NCBI GenBank assembly: GCA_913009735.1
Contig: CAJVYU010000003.1
Span: 1 to 56,163 of the forward strand
Length of the DNA stretch: 56,163 bases
DNA from: an uncultured Fidelibacterota bacterium
GTDB taxonomy: Bacteria; Fidelibacterota; Marinisomatia; Marinisomatales; TCS55
Reading direction: 5' to 3'
Shown here: in pieces, positions 39,330 through 46,119 of the stretch
Layout of the letters: each line of letters starts with the position of its first letter
Numbering within the stretch: position 1 is the first letter of the stretch
Made by a program: the position numbers and the translations under genes
Notes under the pieces: generated by a model
Told to the model about the DNA's origin: nothing
The model's input: the letters and a program-made list of their open reading frames with translations, nothing else
Databases searched by the model: none

Positions 39330-40304
39330 ATGTTTGTTGATTATACAATTTTAAAATGCATATCAGGGAAGGGCGGTGCCGGTGCCGTTTCGTTTCGACG
39401 GGAGAAATTTGTACCCAAAGGAGGTCCTGACGGAGGAAATGGCGGCAAAGGGGGAGATGTTATCTTTCGAGCAGACAGGCAATTGCACACACTCCGGGAT
39501 ATTCGCTATAAAAAAGTATATAAAGCAAAAAATGGCCAACCCGGATCTTCCAATCAAAAGACTGGGAAAAATGGGGAAGATGCTCTCATTCGAGTTCCGC
39601 TGGGAACAGTTATAAAAATTGAAAATACAGGTGAAGTTACTGCTGACCTTGTTGAAGACAATCAGGTCTTTATCGCTCTTAAGGGTGGTATAGGTGGCAG
39701 AGGAAATGCGTGCTTTAAATCAGCCACCCATCAAACGCCTCGTTATGCCCAACCGGGAATGGAAGGAAAAGCGGAAACATTTGAGGTTGAGCTCAAAGTA
39801 CTGGCCGATGTGGGCTTGGTTGGACTGCCTAATGCCGGAAAATCTACTTTATTATCGGTTGTATCGTCAGCTCGACCGAAAATTGCAGATTATCCATTTA
39901 CTACACTAGAGCCGAATCTTGGTATCGTGAAATATGGAGAATTTCAGTCATTTGTCATGGCGGATATTCCCGGACTGATTGAAGGTGCTGCTAAAGGTAA
40001 GGGATTAGGGCATCAATTTTTAAAACATGTGGAACGAACCAAAGTTTTATTATTTATGATTGATTGTACAGAAGAAAATCCACAATCTGTTTTTGAAACA
40101 TTATCAGCAGAATTAAAAACATATAATCCTGATATGAAGAAAAAACCCTATTTGATTATCAGAACGAAAATAGACTTGAGAAATGATGATACAGATGCAA
40201 TGTGGTCACATATGTCTAATATGCTGGATATTTCCTCGGTGACTAACCAGGGTGTTAAACAATTGATATCTCGTATAACTGAATTACTGCATGAAAAAGA
40301 CTGA
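39330..40304 (+). CDS. obg: Obg GTPase
   Basis: Ribosome-associated GTPase needed for large-subunit maturation, 324 residues. The N-terminal Gly-rich Obg fold (CISGKGGAGAVSFRREKFVPKGGPDGG in parts), G1 GLPNAGKST, the FTTLEPNLG switch, G3 DIPGLIEGA and G4 RTKIDL are present. The C-terminal OCT domain of the B. subtilis protein is absent, a common variant. The end overlaps dprA by 14 bases. Confidence 0.96.
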   Translation: MFVDYTILKCISGKGGAGAVSFRREKFVPKGGPDGGNGGKGGDVIFRADRQLHTLRDIRYKKVYKAKNGQPGSSNQKTGKNGEDALIRVPLGTVIKIENTGEVTADLVEDNQVFIALKGGIGGRGNACFKSATHQTPRYAQPGMEGKAETFEVELKVLADVGLVGLPNAGKSTLLSVVSSARPKIADYPFTTLEPNLGIVKYGEFQSFVMADIPGLIEGAAKGKGLGHQFLKHVERTKVLLFMIDCTEENPQSVFETLSAELKTYNPDMKKKPYLIIRTKIDLRNDDTDAMWSHMSNMLDISSVTNQGVKQLISRITELLHEKD

Positions 40305-41385
40305 TCTTATCCAAATATTAAATCTATTAAATGTACCGAAACTTGGACCCCAAAGAGTTCGAAACATTATGGCACATTTTGAGAATGGCGATGCAGTATT
40401 CAATGCAACAAAAAAGGACTTATGTCAGCAGTCTGGTATTGATATCGCAATTGCCGGATCGATAAAGAATTATAACGATTTCGATTTTGGCGAAAAAGAG
40501 GTTAAAAAATCCGAGAATTTAAATGTATCTATTGTCTCCATCTGGGATGATGAATATCCGATTATGTTAAAGAAAATTTATGATCCACCTGTCATTTTAT
40601 TTACAAAAGGACAATCGCTGAATAAAGAAGAAGATGCAGTCGCCATAGTTGGCACAAGAAAGTTCACACCTTATGGTAAAAGTATGACAATATCTATCGT
40701 GAAAGACCTGAATTCTTCCGAAATAACGGTTGTCAGCGGTTTGGCCAGAGGTATTGACACTATTGCCCATAAAGAAACCGTAAAAAATAAGATGCGGACC
40801 ATCGCAGTTCTTGGCAGTGGAATTGATGTTGTTTACCCAGCTGAAAATTGGAAATTGTTTAACGAAATTTGCGAAAAAGGGACCGTTATTTCCGAATTTC
40901 GGTTTGGCACTAAACCGGATGGCGGAAATTTTCCCCAACGTAATCGGATTATCAGCGGACTATCTCACGCTACGGTTGTCATCGAAGCAGGACATAGGAG
41001 CGGCGCCATCTTAACGGCATTTAATGCTGTAGATCAAAACAGAGATGTGTTTGCTGTTCCGGGACGAGTAACCGATCCCCAGAGCAAGGGAACGATTCGG
41101 TTAATTCGGAATGGTGCATTCCCAGTGGAAAGAGGAAAACAGGTTATCGATCATATTCAACCGAAGTTATTTAAACCACGCAGACCCGTGCAGGAAACGA
41201 TCAACCTTAAATTAACAGATGACGAAAGATCATTATTGGTCGTTCTAAATCATCAGCCTCAGCATATAGATGAAATTGTGTCCGTATCAGGAGTAAATCT
41301 GACAAAGACACTTACATTACTTTTAGGAATGGAATTAAAAGGAGCTGTCATACAATTGAGCGGGAAACAGTTTGTACGCGCTTGA
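40291..41385 (+). CDS. dprA: DNA processing protein DprA
   Basis: Loads RecA on incoming single-stranded DNA during natural transformation, 364 residues. An N-terminal HhH-like part (LLNVPKLGPQRVRNIM) is followed by the Rossmann domain with VAIVGTRKFTPYG, SGLARGIDTIAH, GSGIDVVYPAEN, FPQRNRIISGLSHATVVIEA and a C-terminal winged helix (HIDEIVSVSGVNLTKTLTLL). With the ComEA-like and pilin-like genes about 5-7 kb upstream it hints at competence in this organism. Confidence 0.95.
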   Translation: MKKTDLIQILNLLNVPKLGPQRVRNIMAHFENGDAVFNATKKDLCQQSGIDIAIAGSIKNYNDFDFGEKEVKKSENLNVSIVSIWDDEYPIMLKKIYDPPVILFTKGQSLNKEEDAVAIVGTRKFTPYGKSMTISIVKDLNSSEITVVSGLARGIDTIAHKETVKNKMRTIAVLGSGIDVVYPAENWKLFNEICEKGTVISEFRFGTKPDGGNFPQRNRIISGLSHATVVIEAGHRSGAILTAFNAVDQNRDVFAVPGRVTDPQSKGTIRLIRNGAFPVERGKQVIDHIQPKLFKPRRPVQETINLKLTDDERSLLVVLNHQPQHIDEIVSVSGVNLTKTLTLLLGMELKGAVIQLSGKQFVRA

Positions 41386-41432
41386 TCAGATTGCTAATTT
41401 CCCCGCCGTAAAACAACATATAAAAATTACTT

Positions 41433-41526
41433 GGAGAGGTGGCCGAGCTGGCTGAAGGCGCTCGCCTGCTAAGTGAGTAACCGGAGATAATCTGGTTCGA
41501 GAGTTCGAATCTCTCCCTCTCCGCCA
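41433..41526 (+). tRNA. tRNA-Ser (anticodon GCU), CCA encoded
   Basis: Acceptor arm GGAGAGG (41433-41439) pairs with CCTCTCC (41516-41522), discriminator G41523, CCA at 41524-41526. The anticodon arm CTCGC-CTGCTAA-GTGAG contains the anticodon GCT. A long variable arm (TAACCGGAGATAATCTGGTT region) marks it as class II serine tRNA, and the T-arm is GAGAG-TTCGAAT-CTCTC. The encoded CCA merges directly into the first unit of the tandem repeat downstream. Confidence 0.95.
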
Positions 41527-41723
41527 ACCTGCGTACCGCTTCACGGTATCTTCGGTCGGCAGGCCAACTTGCGTATTGCTATGCGGTACCTTCGGTTGGC
41601 AGGCCAACTTGCGTATTGCTATGCGGTACCTTCGGTCGGCAGGCCAACTTGCGTATTGCTATGCGGTACCTTCGGTCGGCAGGCCAACTTGCGTATTGCT
41701 ATGTGGTACCTTCGGTCGGCTAG
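41524..41723. repeat. Five tandem 40-bp repeats starting in the tRNA CCA end
   Basis: Units begin at 41524, 41564, 41604, 41644 and 41684, each starting CCAAC and ending GG(C/T)(C/T)GGCAGG or a close variant (the last ends TCGGCTAG). The first unit is the most diverged; units 2-4 are nearly identical, differing at a single position (GGTTGG versus GGTCGG), and unit 5 differs slightly (ATGTGG and CTAG). Unit content includes CTTGCGTATTGCTATGCGG and GGTACCTTCGGTCGG, with a weak stem across unit junctions (GTTGG-CAGG-CCAAC). The period is not a multiple of 3, so reading frames through it are not coding. Confidence 0.95.
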
Positions 41724-41788
41724 CCAACATAAGAAGAATCTTCAGTTGATTAGCCGACCATATTTATAACCAGAATTATGGAGATGAT

Positions 41789-42031
41789 ATGTGGTATGTA
41801 TATGCATTGGAAAACCCGAAAAAAAACTTTATATACATTGGACATTCAAATGATTTAAAGCGACGGTTAAAAGAACATTCTGATGGTAATACTCAATCTA
41901 CTAAAGCCTATCTTCCCTTGATATTAAGTGCCTATGTTGCAGTAACATCGGAGCAAAAAGCTAAACGATTAGAAAAATATTTTAAGACTGGTTCGGGGAA
42001 AACAATTTTGAAAAAAAGAATTCTCCAGTGA
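41789..42031 (+). CDS. Small GIY-YIG nuclease-like protein
   Basis: An 80-residue single-domain protein of the GIY-YIG superfamily. It has WYVYALE (Y-x-Y for GIY), FIYIGHSNDLKRRLKEH (YIG and catalytic Arg) and the metal-binding Glu in AKRLEKYFKTGSG. It is similar in size and ending (GSGKTILKKR) to UPF0213-type proteins. It has no extra DNA-binding domain, unlike classic homing endonucleases. A GGAG lies 6-9 bases before the ATG. It sits after a tRNA-Ser gene and a tandem repeat, and the same arrangement recurs in decayed form at 42081, so a role in mobility of the module is a fair hypothesis. Confidence 0.88.
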   Translation: MWYVYALENPKKNFIYIGHSNDLKRRLKEHSDGNTQSTKAYLPLILSAYVAVTSEQKAKRLEKYFKTGSGKTILKKRILQ

Positions 42032-42080
42032 GGGAATAATTGTGAGAATCCAGGCCAAACGAAGGCGAAGCGTAGTTTGG

Positions 42081-42132
42081 TCTCCCTCTCCGCCAACTTG
42101 CGTATTGCTATGTGGTACCTTCGGTCGGCAGG
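42081..42132. repeat. Second tRNA-Ser 3' tail plus one 40-bp repeat unit
   Basis: Bases 42081-42097 (TCTCCCTCTCCGCCAAC) repeat exactly bases 41512-41528, the 3' end of tRNA-Ser with its CCA. One 40-bp unit (42093-42132) follows, matching unit 5 of the first array most closely (ATGTGG). No tRNA body precedes it; instead CCAAAC and GTTTGG (around 42055-42080) can pair as a stem. It marks the start of a second module copy. Confidence 0.85.
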
Positions 42133-42193
42133 CCAACATAAAATCTTCAGTTGACTAACCGATCATATTTATAACCAGTATTATGAAGGTGAT

Positions 42194-42262
42194 ATGTGGT
42201 ATGTTTATATATTAGAAAACCCGGAAAAAACTTTATATATGTTGGATATACGAATGAATTAA
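42194..42262 (+). pseudogene. Truncated, frameshifted GIY-YIG gene copy
   Basis: The frame opens MWYVYILENPEK like the intact gene at 41789, then one base is missing in an A run near 42222-42228 compared with that copy. This shifts the frame and stops it at 42260-42262. Restoring one A would give NFIYVGYTNELKW, the GIY-YIG motif. Homology to the intact copy ends near 42267. The upstream leader (42133-42193) also matches the first module's leader. Confidence 0.85.
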
Positions 42263-42314
42263 AGTGGGTTTAATAAACCGGTAAAACGGTTCTGATTATT
42301 GAGTTCACTCACAT

Positions 42315-42332
42315 CCACGATTAATATCGTGG
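42315..42332. repeat. Palindrome of a dispersed repeat family
   Basis: CCACGATTAATATCGTGG is an inverted repeat with 6-bp arms and an AT-rich centre. It is related to the perfect 20-bp palindrome 76 bases downstream and resembles hairpin-forming intergenic repeats. Confidence 0.7.
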
Positions 42333-42390
42333 GTTGCGTCCTCATTGGAAACAAAATATATTGTTGTGAAATGGCGTATTGATCCTAAAA

Positions 42391-42410
42391 CCCACGAATT
42401 AATTCGTGGG
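42391..42410. repeat. Perfect 20-bp palindrome
   Basis: CCCACGAATTAATTCGTGGG is a perfect palindrome. With the one at 42315 it forms a pair enclosing TTGGAAACAA..., and GTGGAAACAA also follows the second, so the unit is repeated, not just the palindrome. No coding potential is apparent in this stretch. Confidence 0.75.
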
Positions 42411-42431
42411 GTGGAAACAATAACAAGCCGG

Positions 42432-42451
42432 AACCGATTCATCGGTTTTTC
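42432..42451 (+). terminator. Possible intrinsic terminator
   Basis: AACCGA (42432-42437) and TCGGTT (42442-42447) form a 6-bp stem with a 4-base loop, followed by TTT and a T-rich stretch. It would stop transcription coming from the tRNA/GIY-YIG region. Confidence 0.45.
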
Positions 42452-42593
42452 TTCGTAGTGTGCAATCTTATTAATTTGAAAGTTGAGTTTATTCCTTAAT
42501 TCAGTCATTATATAGAACAGAGCCATTTTGATTTGTATGTCTTTTTTGCGATAAGATCCATTATGAATATAATTAATTGACATAAATTCTAAC

Positions 42594-43301
42594 ATGTGCG
42601 GACGCTTTACACTCACAAAAGACAAGGAAGAAATCGAGGAACGCTTCGAAATTCACATCGATCCCACCATGTTCTCCAAAACGTACAATGCAGCGCCAAA
42701 TCAAATATTACCCATCATTACAAACGACATACAGGAACAGGCTTCCTTTCATCGCTGGGGATTAATCCCACATTGGGCGAAGGATGAACGTATCGGGAAT
42801 AAACTCATCAATGCCCGCGCAGAAACCATTACAGAAAAGCCCTCATTTCGTGATGCAGTGCAAAAAAGACGCTGTTTAGTGATAACAGACGGTTTTTATG
42901 AATGGGAGCGTTCCGGGGCTAATAAACAACCATATCGCATCACGTTAACAGATGAAAGTCTGTTTGCTTATGCGGGTCTTTGGGAATCATGGTCTGCACC
43001 GGATGGCAGGGAAGTGCGTTCGTTTACGATTATTACCGTTGAGCCGAATGAACTCATAAAACCCATTCACAATCGCATGCCGGCTATGCTTTCTCAGGAA
43101 ACAGAGAAAGTTTGGATCTCCGATGAGCCATTGGAAACGGTTTTGCATTTACTCCAGCCTTATGACGAAGAAGAAATGAATGCCTATCCTGTATCCACCC
43201 GTGTAAATTCGACAAAAAATAATGACCCGAGCTTATTAGAAACCGATCAACAAACTTTATTTAGCCCGATTAATTTACCAGCCGCAGATAAACACGGATA
43301 A
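42594..43301 (+). CDS. SOS response-associated (SRAP/YedK-like) protein
   Basis: A 235-residue SRAP-domain protein that forms a covalent crosslink with abasic sites in single-stranded DNA. The catalytic Cys2 (MCGRF), the NARAET motif, GFYEW and the conserved His in IHNRMPAML are all present. The N-terminal Met must be removed for Cys2 to act, so the ATG at 42594 is firm. It stands alone, downstream of the repeat region; such genes are often seen near mobile DNA. Confidence 0.95.
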   Translation: MCGRFTLTKDKEEIEERFEIHIDPTMFSKTYNAAPNQILPIITNDIQEQASFHRWGLIPHWAKDERIGNKLINARAETITEKPSFRDAVQKRRCLVITDGFYEWERSGANKQPYRITLTDESLFAYAGLWESWSAPDGREVRSFTIITVEPNELIKPIHNRMPAMLSQETEKVWISDEPLETVLHLLQPYDEEEMNAYPVSTRVNSTKNNDPSLLETDQQTLFSPINLPAADKHG

Positions 43302-43424
43302 ACACTGATATTATAGAAGTTGAAAAAATAATTGAATAATAAAAAGTTTTTCATAAAAACACTTTGTGTCTATTTGACAAAATTCGTGACATACTTGTCT
43401 AATGAATAAGGCAGGGTAGATAAT

Positions 43425-43967
43425 ATGAGAAAAATACTGTTGTTGTTAATAACCTTACTATCCATCATAATAGCGCAAACACCGCAATTGATTATAGATG
43501 AAAAAACAGGCGATCCCATGCTTATCGGTTTAAGCCAACGGAGTGACTATGAAAGCAGAGATGACTTCAAGGAGTGGTTTAAGGAAGGATATGAAAGCTA
43601 TGTAATTGATGAAGAAACGCTTTCCATGATATCAGAAGTTGATAAGGACTTAACACTTGAATGTTTTATGGGAACATGGTGCGGGGACAGTCGGAGAGAA
43701 GTACCGCGAATCTATAAAATTTTAGACTATTTGAACTTTGATGAAGAAAAACTGAAGATCATGAGCGTTGATAGAAAAAAAGTCAGTCCTGGGGGAGAAC
43801 AAAAGGGACAGAATATTCACCACGTTCCCACATTGATATTTTATAAAGAAGGAAAGGAAATCGGTAGAATTATAGAATCCCCTGTAGGGTCACTGGAAGA
43901 GGATTTTGTGGATATTCTATTCGGTAATCCGCCAACACCCAATTATGCAGATTGGGAAAAAGAATAA
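43425..43967 (+). CDS. Secreted thioredoxin-like protein
   Basis: A 180-residue protein with an N-terminal signal (about 1-18). The thioredoxin-like domain has TWCGDSRRE in place of WCGPC, i.e. a single active-site Cys (CxxS), and the cis-Pro segment HVPTLIFYKEGKE. CxxS thioredoxins cannot complete a dithiol reduction by themselves, so binding or isomerase-like action is more likely. An upstream TTGACA near 43374 could be part of a promoter but no convincing -10 was found. Confidence 0.8.
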   Translation: MRKILLLLITLLSIIIAQTPQLIIDEKTGDPMLIGLSQRSDYESRDDFKEWFKEGYESYVIDEETLSMISEVDKDLTLECFMGTWCGDSRREVPRIYKILDYLNFDEEKLKIMSVDRKKVSPGGEQKGQNIHHVPTLIFYKEGKEIGRIIESPVGSLEEDFVDILFGNPPTPNYADWEKE

Positions 43968-44087
43968 TCTTTGAAATATTGGTATTTATACATAGACCTA
44001 AATTGAGCGATTCCATAAAATGAGGCATTTGTTTATTTCTCGAAAACATGCGGGTCTTCCCATTTCTTGCACCACCCTTACCAATGT

Positions 44088-46119
44088 TAACCCGTCTTAA
44101 GCAGTTCGCGGATCAAAAACCTGTAAGTTATTGATATCAAGGACTCGAGTCTAAAAGGTCGGCACTACAGGACAAAAATTTTCTAGTTGGTAATTTTCAT
44201 TCCGGAGGTAATTTTCGGTGGGGGTTGATCCGGTAGAACCAGATTCATTTGGTGTAAAAGTAACTGTTGATCTTTATCAGGTTGAGTGTATCTTGATAGA
44301 ATAATTTGTCTACCATCAGTTGTAGGCAAGTGAATATCCAGCATCTGCATTGAAATAAACTTTTCTATAACAGCTTTTGGAGTCAACCCAGAGGCCAACG
44401 CTTTTAACCGCTGTTTTAATGTAACCTGGAGACAGTAGGCTACAAAGGCAATAAATATATGTGCTTCGATTCGGTGATCTTTCTGATGAAAAACCGGGCG
44501 GATCTTCAAATTATTTTTTAATTCTTTAAACGCCTGTTCAACTTCTGTAAGCTGAATATAGTATTCCCACAGTTTTGCAGGACGTTCTTTAGTAAGATTG
44601 GACCGTAAGAGATAATTTCCTTCCCGGCGTATTACTTGTGCCAAGCGTTTTTTATCTAATACAAAGGTAAAGGTTTCCTTCGTAACCGACTGGTTTTTCC
44701 CCGGTAAATTAATTTTCACCAATGACCAGGTACGGCCGGCTTCTTTTTTGGCTGCCCCCAGCTTTAGCAATAACTGATCCCGTGTGAGTTTTTGCTCTTG
44801 TAATTCATGTAAACGGCTCCAAAGTTTTTTCAATCGACGTTGACGCATTGATCGTTCCTTATTCACACGACCGGCACTTCTTGCAAGGATATAGAGTTCA
44901 TCACCATTTTCTAAGAGTTTTACCTCCACGGACTCACGGGCTTTATTCCAGTGTAAAGAATGAAACTTTTTTTCCAGTTTAGTCAAACGTCCTTTGGGAG
45001 TCCCCACCAGGTAATGTACCGGATATTCCATCTGTCTCATGGCTGCCAGGGTTTCTTCGGTGGGAATACCACGATCCATTAACCATATTCGGTCGTACCG
45101 CCCATATTGTTCTTCTATTCTTGAAAGAAAAGCAGGTAAGGTGGTCTTATCTGAGGTATTGCCAGGCATTACTTCATAAGCCATTGGAAAACCTTCAGGC
45201 GTGACTATCAGAGCAATAACCACCTGGACACAGTCAGGTCGCTTGTCCCGGCTGTAGCCAAATTTCTTTTTACTATATTTAGGGGGATCACACTCAAAAT
45301 AGGTGCTGGTCAAATCATATAATAGAACATCAAATTTTACATCAAACAAGGTCTCCCACTTTTGACGTAAAAAAGAAAACATATCCTCCTTATATTCCAA
45401 TAATCTATCCAGACAACGATACAGCTTGTCAATCTGAACCAAAGAAAAATCCTCTCCCAATAGATCGGGCATGGCACTGTTGATATACCAATGACGGTGC
45501 AACCGCCATTCACTGCCCGGATCTATCAAGCTGTAACTTACCAGGGTCTTGAAAACATTCAGCCACCGGGTTCCCTTCCGGGAAGGGGTTAATCTTTCTG
45601 ACCAAAACTCATCAAAATCCAATTGCTCCCACAACTGACAAAATAACCAGCACGCTCCCCACTGGCGGGAATGATGCAGCTGTAGCTGGCTAAGTCTGAT
45701 CTGAACAACATCGCAATCAAGCACGGGAGCTTTTCTGTCTTCCGGAAATATGGCCATCTGGGTAGGCTGCGATTGCCCATCGGTAAATACATCGATTGTT
45801 CTACACCAGGCGGCCTTCTGAGAATCATTGATCTCGCCTAAATACAATACTTGCCTCTGTACAACACGACCATTAGATACACGTCGGTTCTCAACAATGC
45901 TCCAATATCGATGGTTTTTACCATCCTTAAAACGGTTTTTGGCTCGTAAAAACATAACCGAATTTTTACTTTATTATGATTGAATAGCAATAGGGTAGGT
46001 CGGCACTACAACACCATATGACCTGTTTTCGAAATACCGAACCCTATTTATCAGGCACTTACAGGTATCGTTACACGTAATTTTGTTGGTTCTTGGGCTG
46101 AATCGCTTAAGACGGGTTA
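44088..46119 (-). mobile_element. IS1634-like insertion sequence (about 2.0 kb)
   Basis: A 15-bp perfect inverted repeat, TAACCCGTCTTAAGC (44088-44102) and GCTTAAGACGGGTTA (46105-46119), brackets the transposase gene and gives a total length typical of the family. Similarity continues imperfectly inward (CCTGTAAGT on both sides). I see no target-site duplication outside these ends. A 14-bp direct repeat AGGTCGGCACTACA (44156-44169 and 45997-46010) lies inside, close to the gene. The alternative that this direct repeat is the target duplication is weaker because no inverted ends adjoin it. Confidence 0.65.
44183..45955 (-). CDS. IS1634/IS4-superfamily transposase
   Basis: DDE transposase of 590 residues, apparently intact. 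Candidate catalytic residues are Asp in LLYDLTSTYFE, Asp in RIWLMDRGIPT and Glu in TEVEQAFKELKNNLKIRP. The N-terminus (FLRAKNRFKDGKNHRYWSIVENRR in parts) and the length fit IS1634-type proteins. It is the only gene between 42.6 and 53.3 kb on the minus strand. Confidence 0.9.
   Translation of the reverse strand: MFLRAKNRFKDGKNHRYWSIVENRRVSNGRVVQRQVLYLGEINDSQKAAWCRTIDVFTDGQSQPTQMAIFPEDRKAPVLDCDVVQIRLSQLQLHHSRQWGACWLFCQLWEQLDFDEFWSERLTPSRKGTRWLNVFKTLVSYSLIDPGSEWRLHRHWYINSAMPDLLGEDFSLVQIDKLYRCLDRLLEYKEDMFSFLRQKWETLFDVKFDVLLYDLTSTYFECDPPKYSKKKFGYSRDKRPDCVQVVIALIVTPEGFPMAYEVMPGNTSDKTTLPAFLSRIEEQYGRYDRIWLMDRGIPTEETLAAMRQMEYPVHYLVGTPKGRLTKLEKKFHSLHWNKARESVEVKLLENGDELYILARSAGRVNKERSMRQRRLKKLWSRLHELQEQKLTRDQLLLKLGAAKKEAGRTWSLVKINLPGKNQSVTKETFTFVLDKKRLAQVIRREGNYLLRSNLTKERPAKLWEYYIQLTEVEQAFKELKNNLKIRPVFHQKDHRIEAHIFIAFVAYCLQVTLKQRLKALASGLTPKAVIEKFISMQMLDIHLPTTDGRQIILSRYTQPDKDQQLLLHQMNLVLPDQPPPKITSGMKITN

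Follow-up and report, generated by a model that had tools for sequence, protein, structure and literature searches.

Small GIY-YIG nuclease genes behind tRNA genes point to an undescribed family of minimal mobile elements

Behind an intact tRNA-Ser(GCT) gene in the window (the whole 56,163-nucleotide stretch of DNA that was analysed, from a Ca. Neomarinimicrobiota genome), a set of 40-bp repeats, a small GIY-YIG nuclease gene and a second copy of the tRNA 3' end are followed by the beginning of the same series again, which raises the question of what kind of unit this is and how it came to lie at a tRNA gene. An earlier note, made from the sequence alone, had described five 40-bp repeats, a leader and a complete GIY-YIG gene after the tRNA, an exact 17-base copy of the tRNA tail, and a second unit with one 40-bp repeat, a similar leader and the start of another GIY-YIG gene, all of which are present at the coordinates given in Table 1. 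Exact copies of the tail TCTCCCTCTCCGCCAAC begin at 41512 and 42081, a distance of 569 bp, and there is no third site in the window with up to 2 mismatches allowed. The second GIY-YIG sequence goes out of frame after ~13 codons and is cut off near 42264, and is therefore a dead fragment. Sequence searches of the whole genome, from which the genome-wide repeat counts are taken, find the 40-bp repeat elsewhere only as a diverged copy on contig C62.

Table 1. Features of the tRNA-Ser(GCT) locus, by position in the window
Feature	Position	Strand	Support
tRNA-Ser(GCT), intact	41433..41526	+	ARAGORN; Rfam RF00005 E 3e-10
tRNA 3' tail, copy 1 (TCTCCCTCTCCGCCAAC): T-stem 3' strand, acceptor and CCA	41512..41528	+	
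Five 40-bp units, tandem left-hairpin array: GCCAAC-TTGCG..CTTCG-GTTGGC with AGG linker	41523..41722	+	
Leader, from hairpin array to start codon	41723..41788	+	88% identity with second leader
GIY-YIG nuclease gene, 80 aa, single domain	41789..42031	+	PF01541 E 1.8e-15
Right hairpin CCAAACGAAGGCGAAGCGTAGTTTGG, inverted relative to the left ones	42055..42080	-	DNA fold z -2.1
tRNA 3' tail, copy 2, exact	42081..42097	+	
One 40-bp left-hairpin unit of the second, truncated element	42092..42131	+	
Second GIY-YIG gene, 5' fragment: frame broken, 3' part missing	42194..42264	+	

The tRNA-Ser(GCT) gene is probably the target, its 3' tail being restored by the element; CCA is encoded here, whereas it is absent from the orthologous tRNA-Ser genes of G001, G002 and G016. 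The surrounding ORFs (40291-45955) include dprA, SRAP and thioredoxin genes and a DDE transposase. These neighbours lie outside the unit, which holds one gene, and there is no tyrosine or serine integrase among these ORFs, as had been stated for the locus before. The DDE transposase gene (PF01609; 44183-45955, minus strand) is complete and lies 2 kb downstream of the element. The truncated second element is directly followed by two palindromes, CCCACGATTAATATCGTGGG and CCCACGAATTAATTCGTGGG (42315-42409), with the look of REP or IS200-type sequences.

In the 80-aa protein the residues of the GIY-YIG catalytic site (Y5, Y16, G18, R26, H30 and E62) are conserved in the alignment, and the AlphaFold2 model is predicted to take up the GIY-YIG fold with confidence (mean pLDDT 90). 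The solved structures nearest to the model are UPF0213 proteins, SLX1 and the catalytic domain of I-TevI, with the UPF0213 protein BH0048 (PDB 1zg2) in first place by Foldseek and with a sequence match of E 2.5e-17. While UPF0213 (BH0048; EF2693) and SLX1, a branched-DNA repair nuclease that works with a partner protein, are thus the closest sequence and fold matches, single-domain GIY-YIG proteins in the sampled genomes also form a separate clade without tRNA neighbours. There are matches to PHROG homing endonucleases at 2e-5; the Rfam search finds no intron at the locus, so that the gene is free-standing, and there is no recognisable DNA-binding domain outside the fold of ~80 residues. Within the clade, where dS is not saturated, dN/dS is 0.04-0.21, which indicates that the nuclease is under purifying selection.

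The association with tRNA genes is not confined to this locus. A genome-wide search finds six GIY-YIG domains in the window genome, one of which is UvrC, and the other five genes (5/5) are each directly downstream, on the same strand, of tRNA-Gly, tRNA-Leu, tRNA-Ser, tmRNA or tRNA-Met. There are 78 tRNA-linked GIY-YIG matches in genomes of the same order. Among 40 such relatives most of the small GIY-YIG genes follow an intact tRNA, with a gap of 0-10 nt behind Ala, Asp, Leu, Val, Pro, Met and Gly tRNAs and of ~30-340 nt behind tRNA-Ser and tmRNA, while a minority are ~30-100 nt in front of a tRNA. Some units are indeed upstream of the intact tRNA and carry a 5' partial tRNA copy instead. A scan of 84,980 species genomes across phyla, by protein similarity alone and with the Ser-clade alignment as query, returned 68 loci. 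Of the 57 with enough upstream sequence to judge, 53 have a same-strand tRNA or tmRNA gene no more than 420 nt upstream (52 detected by script, plus L210, with tRNA-Ser 72 nt upstream). The linked loci come from Fidelibacterota, Bacteroidota, Balneolota, Ignavibacteriota, Pseudomonadota, Chloroflexota and Omnitrophota, and from the CPR lineages Peregrinibacteria, Buchananbacteria and Falkowbacteria, so that tRNA-linked relatives are present in at least eight bacterial phyla. Linkage by chance is estimated at ~0.3% per gene, given ~45 tRNA genes in 3 Mb. No tRNA accompanies UvrC at the 8 loci with full 1.5-kb flanks, a small control drawn from 28 UvrC loci, and none of the 21 members of the separate clade of single-domain GIY-YIG proteins is tRNA-linked. 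No hidden non-coding RNAs were found by Rfam beside the GIY-YIG genes that have no tRNA.

The nuclease tree has 20 changes of tRNA isotype, as against at least 43 in 300 shuffles, and nuclease clades therefore track tRNA identity. The targets also include tmRNA genes (L004, L023, L027, L091, L102, L110, L113, L221 and L285), which have been hit by at least two distinct nuclease clades. In the IMG/VR collection a relative is present on one contig only, with a tRNA-Lys 80 nt away, which rules out a phage vector as the main carrier as far as that collection goes. Two loci show other surroundings. At L056 (G026:C65, 1500-1730, minus strand) a GIY-YIG gene of the same family is found right behind a tyrosine recombinase resembling an integron integrase; it is flanked by GTTAG/CTAAC inverted ends and is possibly a gene cassette. 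At L015 (G009:C47, 1501-1737) the GIY-YIG gene interrupts an apparent four-helix-bundle (23S intervening-sequence) protein gene and is bounded by inverted ACCCCGTGAAAT / ATTTCAC-GGGG ends, with relatives of this palindrome in L012.

The units share an anatomy as well as a location: intact tRNA, a hairpin with the core CTRCG..CTTCG, the GIY-YIG gene, the hairpin again in inverted orientation, and a copy of the tRNA tail that begins in the T-loop. Beyond the gene, 58 of 104 units have a tail copy that is 3'-anchored and 9 nt or longer, and in 40 of these 58 it starts at tRNA positions 57-62, within the T-loop or at the beginning of the T-stem 3' strand; about 46 of the 104 have no clean tail copy, through decay, contig ends or another arrangement. 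In the Ser clade the inverted hairpin is often immediately before the tail copy, while in other clades a different palindrome, such as CCTGCCTG..CAGGCAGG or TCCCGAC..GTCGGGA, breaks the pseudo-tRNA right after GTTC. The left hairpin of the Ser clade starts at the last bases of the tRNA, across phyla, and has a covarying outer stem of 6 bp, the invariant core CTRCG..CTTCG and an inner stem that varies. Its motif is found in plus orientation in the left region of 38 of 52 units and in minus orientation in the right region of 29 of 52, with a background of less than 1. The gene takes its stop codon from the CGTAG of the right hairpin in 15 units, which makes the hairpin part of the element. The 17-base repeats of the window, likened earlier to attachment sites, are thus present, although they are better described as the tRNA tail from the T-loop onwards, lying behind an inverted hairpin that had been missed, and the 40-bp repeats, likewise present, are an array of the Ser-clade left hairpin. 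Folded as RNA, the best of these left units (41563-41600) has a z of -3.3 and the others are weaker; as single-stranded DNA, the right hairpin alone among those of the window folds significantly, and no conclusion is drawn from this contrast.

The earlier note had proposed a minimal element, mobile or self-duplicating, in association with tRNA 3' tails, and had suggested searching related genomes and comparing orthologous tRNA-Ser loci, with a module always at one conserved site as the outcome that would count against mobility. The opposite was found: there are empty orthologous sites and copies at many other tRNA genes, and full, hairpin-only and empty loci beside a strong tRNA association elsewhere, so that the proposal is supported at the level of sequence. 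The dprA/tRNA-Ser(GCT) locus is occupied in G000, G009 and G022, while the GIY-YIG gene is absent there in G002, G016 and G055 (G009's own genus); reading of the sequence behind the tRNA showed an empty site in G002 and G016. In two further genera there is no GIY-YIG gene in any genome that holds the locus, and G001, of the window's own genus, has a decayed remnant. Full and empty sites are likewise both seen at tRNA-Met, -Pro, -Gly and -Ser(CGA), and in the case of tRNA-Leu one species keeps the interrupted tail alone, as a scar. Outside the phylum, 3 genomes from the genus of Fodinibius halophilus carry the full element at the orthologous tRNA-Ser(GCT) site, 7 have just the hairpin there and 2 have an empty site; in the genus of Rhodohalobacter sulfatireducens the site is occupied in one genome, where the gene is cut by the contig end, and the remaining loci that were read are empty or scarred. 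There is, then, presence/absence polymorphism at a conserved site.

The occupants also change. At the Ser(CGA) site the nucleases of sister species are 33-35% identical while their UvrC proteins are 86-91% identical, which means that different elements have occupied one site, and related nucleases are found at different serine tRNAs within one genome (G009, G033). In the one-contig genome G057 four identical 692-bp units follow tRNA-Asp, together with 14 copies of the tRNA-Asp tail. Also in this genome (L331; G057:C1:2678800-2683400, minus strand), pseudo-tRNA tails with a T-loop palindrome repeat at ~104 bp without the nuclease, which would mean that this piece can multiply alone. Hairpin arrays of the form CGAAGC..GCGTAG, tandem or nested and without a nuclease gene, are present at L318 (G001:C166), at L329 (G178:C97) and downstream of L233, and resemble nested palindrome growth. 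An apparent horizontal transfer between families (L002/L047; nuclease 92% identical, UvrC 57%) was rejected. The G039 contig concerned (G039:C190; L047, L266), binned with another family's genome, shares 89% identity with the window genome over 1.7 kb and is probably mis-binned, leaving the patchy distribution as the evidence for horizontal movement.

We consider it probable that this is a minimal selfish mobile element of tRNA genes, which cuts the T-loop, is copied by break repair and rebuilds the tRNA. An element-free tRNA gene would be cut by the nuclease in or next to the conserved T-loop (GTTCGA), and the break would be repaired from an element-bearing tRNA locus, so copying the element in. 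Since the element would bring its own tRNA 3' half (T-stem 3' strand, acceptor and CCA), the tRNA would stay functional and the old tail would be pushed downstream as the second direct repeat. The inverted, imperfect end hairpins may be the structures that the nuclease recognises, or may protect the inserted copy. Unequal recombination between tail copies could then give tandem arrays, or the loss of the gene, with hairpin or tail scars left behind. There is a precedent in SegB, a phage GIY-YIG enzyme that cuts tRNA genes at the motif RAWTSGAAC and causes a tRNA segment to be amplified in tandem (PMC13096335). Read on the other strand, this motif is the T-loop GTTCSAWTY, and because the insertion boundary lies at or next to the T-loop, matching the SegB motif, a homing-like account is the most economical. 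The free-standing GIY-YIG homing endonucleases of T-even phages, SegB included, are alike in being intron-free genes adjoining tRNA genes; the present element differs in residing in bacterial chromosomes across phyla, in having only ~80 aa, in using many different tRNA genes and in being bracketed by inverted hairpins and a tRNA-tail copy. Nor does it make the clean insertion without target duplication expected of a free-standing homing endonuclease, given the tail copied in 58 of the 104 units. More tentatively, it is possible that the units form an autonomous element class in at least eight phyla, in which the lone ~80-aa nuclease recognises both imperfect hairpins (CTRCG..CTTCG) and T-loops, puts a ~0.6-kb unit into tRNA and tmRNA genes, which are rebuilt in the process, and is the source of the palindromes dispersed in the host genomes.

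Integrase-based elements classically leave direct repeats of a tRNA tail and a restored tRNA, and both are seen here. The unit might instead be a degenerate or non-autonomous integrative element, in which a tyrosine integrase acting in trans recombines the tail copies as att sites while the GIY-YIG gene travels as a passenger, although we think this unlikely. While the unit shares tRNA 3'-end direct repeats and a restored tRNA with the genomic islands, ICEs and prophages of tRNA genes, it has ~0.6 kb, one gene and hairpin ends, and no integrase was found in the sequence around the units. The same single gene recurs across many phyla where varied cargo might be expected, its clades follow tRNA identity, and the hairpin ends are conserved, the gene often stopping on the hairpin's own TAG.

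The hairpins themselves might point to another origin, since they are also found alone. The short hairpin CGAAGCYTNRGCGTAG has 6-15 copies in several element-bearing genomes and 0 in three element-free relatives, the reversed control having 0 occurrences in the same genomes, and 30 of 50 inspected copies are away from any GIY-YIG gene. These scattered hairpins resemble REP palindromes and REPtrons, a REPtron being the gene of a RAYT transposase with REP palindromes on its two sides (Di Nocera 2013, PMC3733652), and Y1 transposases are present in most of the palindrome-carrying genomes and missing from the palindrome-free relatives. That the GIY-YIG gene was merely caught between ordinary REP-like hairpins spread by RAYT/Y1 transposases is nevertheless improbable. 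G188 has the element and both hairpins without a Y1 transposase match, the hairpins keep to fixed places across phyla, with those at the left and right ends oppositely oriented, and a passenger would leave the tRNA-tail copy and the tracking of tRNA identity unexplained. The Ser-clade element is like a REPtron in that a single enzyme gene has inverted imperfect palindromes on either side, which also occur as dispersed solo copies, but its enzyme is a GIY-YIG nuclease and not an HUH/Y1 transposase, and its insertion is tied to tRNA genes; the REPtron paper (Di Nocera 2013, PMC3733652) makes no mention of GIY-YIG.

A host nuclease that serves tRNA maturation, a tRNA stress response or the repair of tRNA genes, and that stays beside its substrate gene in a common transcript, would account for the shared strand, the closeness to the tRNA and the strong purifying selection. 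We regard such a role as quite improbable, as the gene is patchy within genera, with empty and scarred sites, dead fragments (such as that in the window) and tandem arrays, and as many different tRNAs are involved and unrelated nucleases can hold one orthologous site. An assembly or annotation artefact at repetitive tRNA loci has a negligible probability: most cases are indeed from metagenome-assembled genomes, many of them at contig ends, but the element is also present in the named strains Fodinibius halophilus 2W32 and Rhodohalobacter sulfatireducens WB101, in the Ignavibacterium chromosome record CP070637 and in the one-contig genome G057, and flanks match in sister species.

The proposed selfish tRNA-gene element thus stands between three known systems and is a member of none of them, as one defining feature of each fails (there is target duplication, there is no integrase, and there is no Y1 transposase). 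By analogy, it would act like a homing endonuclease, while being bounded like an integrase-based tRNA element and built like a REPtron. No description of chromosomal tRNA-linked GIY-YIG elements was found in the open-access literature searched, and the comparisons made here point to very small mobile elements of tRNA genes that form a family not yet described. The element is common, and cultured strains are among its hosts. If this reading is true, the element would rank with the smallest autonomous mobile elements known, and would represent a second route, besides integrases, by which DNA can colonise tRNA genes without killing them. Two questions would also become testable: by what means a GIY-YIG enzyme with a single domain locates its target, and what the source is of some of the many palindromic repeats in Bacteroidota, CPR and related genomes.
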